Shown here piece by piece: positions 36,521-57,812 of a stretch of 64,000 nt of DNA. A program made the position numbers and the translations under genes. The stretch's first letter is position 1, and each line of letters opens with the position of its first letter. The notes under the pieces were generated by a model, which was given only the letters and a program-made list of their open reading frames with translations, ran no database searches and was not told where the DNA came from. Location of the stretch: the NCBI RefSeq assembly GCF_000327485.1, contig NC_019943.1, positions 1,054,001 through 1,118,000 on the forward strand, given 5' to 3'. Origin of the DNA: Methanoregula formicica SMSP (GTDB taxonomy: Archaea; Halobacteriota; Methanomicrobia; Methanomicrobiales; Methanospirillaceae).

Positions 36521-36709
36521 TTGGGAAAAGTGATCTATGAAGGGGACGATTTCAAGCGGATGCCCCGTGCAGACCTGCTTGCGGTCGAGCGGCTGGTGAA
36601 GAGCGGCAAGCTGGGGATCTTTGAAGTGAAATACAAGGAGACGAAGTTCAAGATCGAGATCAAGAAGAAGGGCATGGATACGGTGGTGAAACGGTTCCGG
36701 GCGATGTGA
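36521..36709 (+). CDS. short basic protein starting with TTG, unknown
   Basis: TTG at 36521 is placed 8 bases behind GGAGG (36508-36512), giving 62 residues: GKVIYEGDDFKRMPRADLLA, VERLVKSGKLGIFEVKYKET and KFKIEIKKKGMDTVVKRFRA. The TTG at 36506 would overlap the ribosome binding site. It is a small lysine-rich protein, perhaps a nucleic-acid-binding adaptor, of a type I do not recognise. It lies at the left border of the gene-poor region. Confidence 0.65.
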   Translation: MGKVIYEGDDFKRMPRADLLAVERLVKSGKLGIFEVKYKETKFKIEIKKKGMDTVVKRFRAM

Positions 36710-36995
36710 TCGGGATCAATCAGACCTTGACGAAAATTTTTCATGCAGGCTTTGATTGAAAACCCTGTATAAGGTTTCTTCGACTTAAAAAATGCCAGTT
36801 CAGCGCCGCTTCCGTCGGTACCGTCGATCCCCTGCCAGAGGGGGACTGGTGTCTCCCGGCGTTCTCCGGATGCCTGTCCGCAGGCTAAAACCCGTTATGC
36901 CCTCTTTTCGGCCAAAAGAATGTGGCAAAAATTTACCTCTCCTCTCCGGCGTAAAAACGGGTTCTGTGCCCGGATTATTCCCTCATTTTCCGGAA

Positions 36996-37038
36996 TGTCG
37001 AATGCTGAAAGCATGAGACATGAGAAGACGAAGTCTTC
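36996..37038 (+). ncRNA. two-hairpin structured module, copy D
   Basis: TGTCGA (36996-37001), hairpin ATGCT-GAA-AGCAT (37002-37014), linker GAGACATGA (37015-37023), hairpin GAAGAC-GAA-GTCTTC (37024-37038). The same order with the same linker but other stem sequences is found at 37361-37412 and 57672-57720, both on the minus strand. Whether it is transcribed is unknown. Confidence 0.6.
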
Positions 37039-37217
37039 GAATTATTCCCTCCTGGTCCGGAAAAGGAGGGAATCGGAGCCCGTAACAGGCCCGGATTGGC
37101 GCATGTCTGAAATGGGGGTGTGCTATGATGTGCGACAGGTCATTGGGCCTGGTGGTGGAGAAGAAATCCTCAGTCTTTGGGGAAAATTTTCCATCGGACC
37201 CTGCTTCAAAAACAATA

Positions 37218-37237
37218 ATCGCGATCGTGATCGCGAT
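37218..37237. repeat. perfect ATCGCGATC palindrome
   Basis: ATCGCGATC (37218-37226), two bases GT, then GATCGCGAT (37229-37237) form a 20-base palindrome with no mismatch. It could be a protein-binding site or a DNA-methylation target; no neighbour explains it. Confidence 0.7.
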
Positions 37238-37323
37238 GGAAAACCTGATCCGGATCAACCCGACCCTGCATGAAAAAAAATGAGCAGACTTTGGCTGCGA
37301 AAAGCGAAGCTCATGCAACTGAT

Positions 37324-37433
37324 ACGATGCCAGACGCGCAAAACGCCTCGCGGGCTCTTCGAAGAATTGTTCTGCAATTCTTCTCGTGTCTCGACTCTGA
37401 TGAGTCTCGACATTGCGCTACGCACTTACCTGT
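37324..37433 (-). repeat. composite dispersed repeat, copy A
   Basis: Plus-strand view: ACGATGC then ACGCGCAAAACGCCTCG (37334-37350), the two-hairpin module reversed (GAAGAATTG-TTCTG-CAATTCTTC 37361-37383, TCGTGTCTC 37384-37392, GACTC-TGAT-GAGTC 37393-37406, TCGACA 37407-37412), and then GCGCTACGCACTTACCTGT (37415-37433), which is 19 of 19 identical to the minus strand at 57759-57777. Relatives lie at 57633-57812 and 63874-64000. Confidence 0.75.
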
Positions 37434-38027
37434 ACGCGAACATGCGTACGGGCCGTTGCCCAGCGTGGGATCGGCAGACCCCCAAGCGACTCCCCGCATT
37501 GCGGGGTGGGGGAGGAATCACATCTACTGGTGCACGTGCTCCTGCCAGAAAAATTCACAAAAGGAGTGCTGCTATGGAGCTACCTTTTAGCTGGTTAGAA
37601 TCCGCTTCATTCCAGCTTTTTTTCATGAAATCAACCCCAAATTGGGATGATCTCTCTTTACGCGCGATACCCTGATAAGACTTTTGAAAGGGCGGAAATT
37701 TCTGGAAATTTTGAAGTTGGGTTATAGATGATAAATGACCGTATTTCGTCGCATCTCAAGTAAATTTTCTGAGTTAGTTTTTTGCATATCTTGTGAATTT
37801 CTAAATTTTTTCTGCAATAACAATTTACTTGGGATCGGGGTAGACAACGAATTAGTCTATACTAGACTAAATTGCTAAAATTTTGACGTTTTTTTGTATC
37901 ATACATTCCGACGTGAGAAATACGGAGAGATACGGACAACTATCCAATGCAAAAACAAATGCAGTTTTCTCTTGATTTATCCTTTTTTGGAGTGTCTGGA
38001 AATTGCTCATATACTATCTGGGAAATC

Positions 38028-38146: not shown

Positions 38147-39253
38147 TTACCAGCTGCTGCTCTCGGTGATCGCGATCAGCCGCGAGAAGCGGTAAATCGT
38201 CGGGCTCTTCCCCTTCCCTTCCCGGCTTACCGTGAGAATATCCGCTTCGGTCAGTCCCTTCAGGACCCGGTGGGCGCTCGGTTTGGGAATTTTTGATTCC
38301 GCGATAAAATCAGCGCTCTTGAAGATCGGGCGCGAGAAGAGCGTATCGATTGCCTGGACCGTATATTGGGAGTGCGTTGCCTCAGGAACCTCTTTTTTCA
38401 TCTTCTCGTAGAGTTCGATGATCGCCGTTGCCTTCTGGTTATTCTCGGTGGCCTGCTCGATAAGCGCCTGTAGAAAGAATCCTATCCAGCCGTTCCAGTT
38501 GTTGTCACGGGAGACTGAAAGCAGATGGTCGTAGTATTCATCCCGGTGGGCCTCAAGGTACGCGCTGATGTAGAACATCGGCGTTGACAGGATCTTTTTA
38601 TTGTAGAGGATGATGGGTACCAGCATCCGCCCGATTCTTCCGTTCCCGTCGCGGAACGGGTGGATGAGCTCGAACTGCGCTTTCAGTACCGCAAGCTGCA
38701 CCAGCGGATCCCGCTCTTCGCTGTGCAGATAGTTCTCCCAGTTCGTGAGGGCATCCGGCACAAGGTTCGGCGGCGGGGGGATGAACGTGGCCCGTTCGAT
38801 GGGGGTACCGTAGGGAGCGATATAATTCTGGATGCGGCGAATCTCTCCGGGTTCCCGGTCCCGTCCGCGGACGCTGGCTAGAAGGATACGGTGAAGGTCG
38901 CGGATCATGTTCGTGCAGATCGGCCGCCTTCCCAAATCCTCGACAGCGGCCCGCATCGCCGTCCGGTAATTGATGATCTCCTGAATGTCCAGCCGCTTCT
39001 CCGGTGTGATCTTGTGCGCTTGGTCCGCTTCGAACTGTAGTACCTCTTCGAGGGATGCCTGAGTACCTTCTATCCGTGACGAGAGGACCGCTTCACGTAT
39101 TGTGAGCGGGGATAGAAGGATCTCGGGATTGATAATGCCTTGGAGCAAGCCATCATATCGGGCAAGGGCCGCGTTCGCTTTCCCGATGCGGGGGATGTGT
39201 GCCATCCAGTCAATGTCATCAAGCGGGAGGATTCGGGGCGTGTACGGCTCCAT
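38147..39253 (-). CDS. Fic-family protein (AMP/nucleotidyl transferase), class II
   Basis: Fic enzymes attach AMP or other nucleotide parts to protein hydroxyls. The 368-residue protein has an N-terminal inhibitory helix with S58-S-R-I-E62-G63 (SxxxEG, class II), the Fic core with the active site HPFRDGNGRIGR at about residues 203-214 and flanking FELIHPF, and a C-terminal winged-helix part (FKSADFIAESKIPKPSAHRV, LKGLTEADILTVSREGKGKS). All catalytic residues are present. It is a stand-alone copy with no antitoxin gene next to it. It lies between an AT-rich island and tRNA-Glu. Confidence 0.93.
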   Translation of the reverse strand: MEPYTPRILPLDDIDWMAHIPRIGKANAALARYDGLLQGIINPEILLSPLTIREAVLSSRIEGTQASLEEVLQFEADQAHKITPEKRLDIQEIINYRTAMRAAVEDLGRRPICTNMIRDLHRILLASVRGRDREPGEIRRIQNYIAPYGTPIERATFIPPPPNLVPDALTNWENYLHSEERDPLVQLAVLKAQFELIHPFRDGNGRIGRMLVPIILYNKKILSTPMFYISAYLEAHRDEYYDHLLSVSRDNNWNGWIGFFLQALIEQATENNQKATAIIELYEKMKKEVPEATHSQYTVQAIDTLFSRPIFKSADFIAESKIPKPSAHRVLKGLTEADILTVSREGKGKSPTIYRFSRLIAITESSSW

Positions 39254-57632: not shown

Positions 57633-57812
57633 TCGCTGATGCGACGATTGCCTATCAGCAGTGGCGCAATTGAAGAATCTTTCGGATTCTTCTCTTGTCT
57701 CATTCCTACGGAATTCGACAGCCCGCGGCGGCCTCACGGACGTTTTTCTGTCGCACGAACAGGTAAGTGCGTAGCGCAAAACCCGACAGGCGTTTTGCGC
57801 GTAGAGAATCGC
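57633..57812 (-). repeat. composite dispersed repeat, copy B
   Basis: On the minus strand it starts GCGATTCTCTACGCG and continues AAAACGCC (57789-57812), makes the 9-pair hairpin GCGCAAAAC/GTTTTGCGC (57774-57800) and GCGCTACGCACTTACCTGT (57759-57777). The two-hairpin module follows (57672-57720), and it ends TCGTCGCATCAGCGA (57633-57647). Copy C at 63874-63998 keeps both ends. Confidence 0.75.

Follow-up and report, generated by a model that had tools for sequence, protein, structure and literature searches.

A mobile-like, insertion-polymorphic double-hairpin repeat in Methanoregula formicica and its relatives

INTRODUCTION

Tiny mobile hairpins are known in bacteria and in mitochondria, and how they move has been solved in few cases. 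MITEs, which include the palindrome-associated elements of haloarchaea, are small, noncoding, and dispersed, and the small dispersed repeats (SDRs) of cyanobacteria are tiny repeats that occur within other repeats. Two like REPs in inverted orientation make up a REPIN, which is accompanied by a Y1-type RAYT; the same paper names the cyanobacterial SDRs (PMC3116915). The double-hairpin elements (DHEs) of Allomyces mitochondria, as summarized in PMC2800124, occur in many intergenic copies, and their numbers vary between related species. That summary reports no flanking duplication, gives the mechanism of mobility as unknown, and describes larger motifs that were duplicated together.

Here, we describe a two-hairpin repeat from the archaeon Methanoregula formicica SMSP. 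The window that we analyzed is a stretch of 64,000 nucleotides, bases 1054001 to 1118000 of a single-contig genome of 2,820,858 bp. A literature search of partial coverage returned no description of the repeat.

RESULTS

The repeat unit and its copies in the window

An initial annotation of the window pointed to three sites with two hairpins each, and on rereading the sequence we found all three, with the stems it quoted. The first, copy D, is a complete unit of 46 bp on the forward strand (positions 36996 to 37041; covariance-model match E=6.8e-12) with the layout TGTC-GA-ATGCT-GAA-AGCAT-GA-GACA, a linker T, and GA-GAAGAC-GAA-GTCTTC-GA-A. Folding and covariation both support its hairpin 1 (36996 to 37020, forward), in which GA at 37000-37001 lies opposite GA at 37015-37016. 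Hairpin 2 (37022 to 37041, forward), flanked by GA...GA-A, is supported by folding and by covariation of the bases outside this bracket. Copy A is a complete unit of about 55 bp on the reverse strand (37358 to 37412), identified from its sequence, the covariance model, and empty hosts elsewhere. The third copy, also complete and on the reverse strand, spans about 53 bp (57668 to 57720) and was delimited by its sequence and by its absence from a relative, described below. A Fic/DOC family protein (window 38147-39253, reverse strand) adjoins the region that holds copies D and A.

Across the family, units measure 46 to 56 bp, and the two hairpins are joined by a one-base linker. Hairpin 1 consists of a 4-bp outer stem, a near-invariant tandem GA/GA mismatch, an inner stem of 4 to 7 bp, and a small loop, mostly ATCA, TTCA, GTCA, or GAA. 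The outer stem varies as TGTC/GACA, TGCT/AGCA, TGCC/GGCA, and CATC/GATG. Hairpin 2 is GAAGA...TCTTC bracketed by GA...GA. Hairpin 1 had been read as a five-pair stem, which is right for the inner stem and too short for the whole, since the flanking TGTC and GACA also pair. This pairing, which lengthens hairpin 1 and places GA opposite GA in mid-stem, was overlooked in the first reading, as were the covariation of the outer stem, the GA...GA around hairpin 2 with partial covariation just beyond it, and a far higher copy number.

The stems covary

We searched with a sequence-only pattern that fixes TGTCGA, GAGACANGAGAAGA, and the spacing range and leaves N at all inner-stem positions. It found 14 copies here and 2 more in the genome of a sister species. 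Reversed controls gave 0 for this pattern and for the hairpin scan described below, and chance was rejected on this result. The inner stems were complementary in all 16 pattern copies, although the pattern leaves those positions free. A covariance model built from these 16 copies gathered 111 matches (93 distinct) at E<=0.1 in the 2.82-Mb genome. In the model alignment, 98.2% of the cells were paired, double-change cells numbered 214 versus 56 after shuffling, and 11 of the 14 stem pairs contained double changes. The covariation score was 0.466, versus 0.140 for shuffled alignments and 0.045 to 0.065 for register-slid controls. Among 29 sequences of less than 75% identity, 6 of 14 pairs reached a permutation P value of <0.001, and among 15 sequences four pairs did. 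Thus, the stem covariation that the initial annotation claimed from three sites is strong and persists after redundancy is reduced to 15 to 29 sequences. The covariance model itself favors paired sequences, and the less biased evidence is the pattern result together with the unanchored scan described below. For hairpin 2, the bases just outside the bracket were Watson-Crick pairs in 41 of 70 units, whereas 20,000 shuffles gave a mean of 19.7 and a maximum of 34.

The GA/GA mismatch lies in a Y-GA-R context in all 70 parsed units. This context is the known setting of sheared tandem G.A pairs, and sheared geometry is therefore expected here. The fold is predicted to be stable both as DNA and as RNA. 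Among stem mismatches, G-T outnumbered A-C (31 versus 12), with 11 of the 31 G-T mismatches coming from one position; this excess leans toward RNA.

The mismatch is kept rather than repaired

Polymerase template switching can perfect palindromes without selection. We therefore considered whether the fold is unselected, its palindromes being perfected by template switching at the fork (quasipalindrome correction) and spread through gene conversion of larger repeats. Such correction is established, larger composites of these repeats do spread together, and a fully paired variant exists (L093:4192-4237). However, correction should erase the GA/GA mismatch. Among 49 hairpins anchored only on GAGAAG, 42 carried GA/GA and one was fully paired. 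In an unanchored scan of 70 distinct hairpins, from sequence enriched for element neighborhoods, GA/GA (19) and its complement TC/TC (19) were by far the commonest 2x2 loops, and 6 hairpins were perfect. Since GA/GA is far commoner than the repaired stem, selection on the fold is indicated, and not palindrome correction. In addition, for copy D and the third copy, the breakpoints between relatives fall at the ends of the unit. We regard the correction account as highly improbable. The stems are conserved as structure while the stem sequence drifts.

Copies are mostly intergenic, numerous, and nearly restricted to one family

The repeat reaches at least 17 to 26 matches in each of nine further genomes of the Methanoregulaceae (G170, G174, G002, G180, G183, G188, G146, G152, and G153), and many sister species hold 0 to 3. 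In a search of the whole order, 48 of 232 genomes had a match; strong and numerous matches occurred only in the Methanoregulaceae, and the other families gave weak matches alone (best E, 6e-5). The strict pattern found 36 stretches over GTDB, 30 in Methanoregula or Methanomicrobiales and 6 single ones in unrelated bacteria; by our own estimate, the latter are about what chance would give. It had 0 matches in the viral sequences of IMG/VR, and viral carriage was rejected on this result.

By our own count with a simple hexamer gene finder, whose calls are crude, 86 of 94 copies lie outside genes. With the same crude calls, distinct intergenic regions that contain copies comprised 26 convergent, 26 tandem, and 6 divergent ones, versus 4, 20, and 10, respectively, among all intergenic regions of the window. 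Copies occur in both orientations and nested in other palindromic repeats. In tandem-gene regions, 16 lie on the same strand as the genes and 20 on the opposite strand, and an mRNA-sense element was rejected for this absence of strand bias. Binning copies at 200 kb gave no clear pattern of replication-strand bias, the skew from partial sequence being too weak to place the origin. Head-to-tail arrays of about 5 to 11 copies with a period of 48 to 54 bp occur at L079 (G188:C34), L085 (G152:C1), and L058 (M. formicica 1882270-1882506). At L022 (2007953-2007988), hairpin 1 is deleted between two GA repeats (TGTCGAGACACGAGA...), and this unit is likely a decay product.

These data bear on whether the copies are multiplied structured noncoding RNAs or a cis-regulatory RNA, such as a 3'-UTR stabilizer, a terminator, or a protein-binding site, with the fold kept for an RNA function at each locus. 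Strong stem covariation, G-U pairs outnumbering A-C, a fold that is stable as RNA, and enrichment in convergent regions, i.e., at 3' ends, all fit such a role. It fits poorly with the 16-to-20 split in gene-relative strand, the 0 to 3 copies in many sister species, and the absence of the window copies from matching loci of a relative. Nor does Rfam offer a match: searches returned zero families at the gathering cutoff and nothing plausible at E<=10, and a known RNA family was rejected on this result, in keeping with the initial annotation, whose author knew no family with this pattern. A tRNA was likewise rejected, as both tRNAs of the window are located elsewhere. We therefore consider an RNA function unlikely as the explanation. 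The claim of a selected RNA or DNA fold nevertheless held through the refuting checks on copies, covariation, Rfam, and genes. What the first reading missed is the insertion polymorphism: the unit behaves as a mobile-like repeat and not as a fixed RNA gene.

Matching loci of a relative are empty

Methanoregula STB_131 (G188) lacks all three window copies at the corresponding loci. Around copy D, the alignment has 84% identity and a single large gap, which reads GAA(46 bp)TTATTCCC. At the third copy, the two G188 matches adjoin each other and skip window 57669-57721; the junction is CGGGT/GCGCC in G188 versus CGGGC(unit)GCGCC here. At the copy A locus, where the alignment is looser than for the other two, G188 has the host hairpin intact and empty. 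The gap edges coincide with the fold ends for copies D and the third copy, and these boundaries define the insertion unit there as two hairpins with a short linker. Any target duplication at the third copy is at most one base; the copy D junction can be read either as a unit ending in CTTCGAA or as a 2-bp AA duplication. Deletion in G188 rather than insertion here may have occurred, and we counted this against our best explanation.

Further loci were compared among relatives. The copy at 596779 is flanked by convergent genes; in species such as G183 and G176, these genes are contiguous or separated by about 13 bp. Here, the interval is well over 100 bp and holds one unit plus a diverged hairpin pair that resembles a second one; in other relatives, the filler is different. 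At 2634674, the left gene alone was matched in most species. At the loci examined, such repeats also explain lineage-specific filling of intergenic regions in Methanoregula.

Units sit inside other repeats

Copy D is carried close to the tip of the long stem (TTATTCCCTCATTTTCCGGAA ... TCCGGAAAAGGAGGGAA) of a host repeat that we call type I (window 36873-37117, forward strand), recognized from related copies that are occupied or empty. Type I is a dispersed structured repeat that measures about 200 bp, has a long outer stem, and contains the block TTTTCGGCCAAAAGAATGTGGCAAAAATTTACCTC. Besides the window site, it occurs in this genome at 294504, 2215530, 2488544, 2731201, and 1802980. Four hosts here are occupied; those at 2731201 and 1802980, and the hosts in G188 and G174, are empty. 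The G174 host, which may be orthologous or paralogous, has a clean 46-bp gap where the unit would sit. The units in the four occupied hosts are nearly identical and sit at one position, so that some copies may have arisen by gene conversion or composite spread and not by fresh insertion.

Copy A lies in the GCGCAA ... TTGCGC stem of a type II host (37334 to 37519, reverse strand), which we delimited by BLAST matches: those at 1147250 and 1207800 are occupied, and that at 1434395 is empty. An empty type II hairpin within the window (ACAGGTAAGTGCGTAGCGCAAAACCCGACAGGCGTTTTGCGCGTAGAG; 57758 to 57812, forward strand) aligns across the copy A junction without the insert. The type II core hairpin (CAGGTAAGTGCGTAGCGCAA ... 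TTGCGC) has many matches in other Methanoregula genomes, with identity reaching 98% across some 45 bp. Even species that have few units or none carry many type II hairpins; the unit therefore probably arrived after this host.

Two further repeats were observed. In a type III host (GGTAATGCAGAGGCATC...GCGCCCCC...GGCTGGCGCAAGGGGGG; L016, L017, L139, and L118), the unit lies just 3' of the host's CCCC/GGGG hairpin in some copies and is missing in others. The other, built around GATCCGGATCAACCSGACCCTG with CGATCGTGATCGCGAT (window 37180-37295 and about 36700-36765), has dozens of matches genus-wide.

The search for a mover

We asked whether copy-rich genomes encode a known type of mover. The Y1 transposase profile (PF01797) was detected in 2 of the 90 genomes of the family and was undetected in this genome and in the copy-rich genomes included. 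Within the genus, a search for reverse transcriptase gave no detection in this genome or in any copy-rich genome tested; the enzyme was present in sister species with 0 to 3 matches to the repeat. A RAYT/IS200 mover and a reverse transcriptase mover were each rejected on these results.

A variant of the first idea is that the repeat is a REP/REPIN-type element moved by a RAYT or an IS200/IS605-type Y1 transposase that has since been lost or has diverged too far for the profile to detect. The lifestyle is alike, in that REPINs are short, lie outside genes, and form hairpin doublets that show compensatory changes (PMC3116915). However, both positive genomes lie outside the copy-rich genomes included, hairpins 1 and 2 differ and stand in direct order instead of forming an inverted REP pair, and no common flanking tetranucleotide was seen. 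The left flanks GGAA, GCAA, GGGG, CTCT, AGAA, and GATT differ from one another, unlike the fixed short target at the left end of an IS200/IS605-derived element. We judge this origin very unlikely.

DISCUSSION

We consider it likely that the family is a very short, noncoding mobile repeat whose replicating unit is a single two-hairpin fold of 46 to 56 bases. A trans-acting enzyme would recognize the folded single strand, probably through the tandem G.A pairs and the GAAGA stem. It would excise or copy the folded unit and join it to DNA that is mostly intergenic, in many cases at or within another hairpin and with no obvious target-site duplication. The intermediate is slightly more likely to be single-stranded DNA than RNA, with the balance near even, because the gene-relative orientation is random, GNA triloops recur, and a reverse transcriptase was undetected. 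GNA triloops (GAA/GCA) are very stable in DNA. It is also possible, if doubtful as yet, that the family represents a new class of minimal archaeal mobile element, in which the double hairpin with its tandem sheared G.A signature is both recognition site and cargo and the enzyme acting in trans belongs to a type other than the Y1 transposases and reverse transcriptases.

In this family, archaea offer a system in which one genome holds about a hundred copies, with a sharp structural signature and sites that are present or absent between relatives. A complete genome exists for a host that is probably culturable, and the contrast between copy-rich and copy-poor Methanoregula species allows a direct test for the mover.

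The nearest kinds of element are REPINs and repetitive hairpin-forming elements, including the Allomyces double hairpins as they are summarized. Like MITEs, the unit is small, noncoding, and dispersed; unlike in MITEs, its ends, TGTCGA and CTTCGA(N), do not form a terminal inverted repeat, target duplication is not clear, and a Y1 transposase was undetected. The cyanobacterial SDR is similarly tiny and nested in other repeats. With REPs and REPINs (PMC3116915), the unit shares short, mobile-like extragenic hairpins, compensatory stem changes, and clusters, whereas it lacks their RAYT gene and inverted REP pair: it is made of two dissimilar hairpins in direct order, and a Y1 protein was undetected. 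Compared by description only, it behaves like the Allomyces DHE as summarized in PMC2800124, but it resides in an archaeal chromosome and has the tandem GA/GA and the GA-bracketed second hairpin. The best reading is thus a mobile double-hairpin element, close in kind to REPINs and to the double-hairpin elements of fungal mitochondria.
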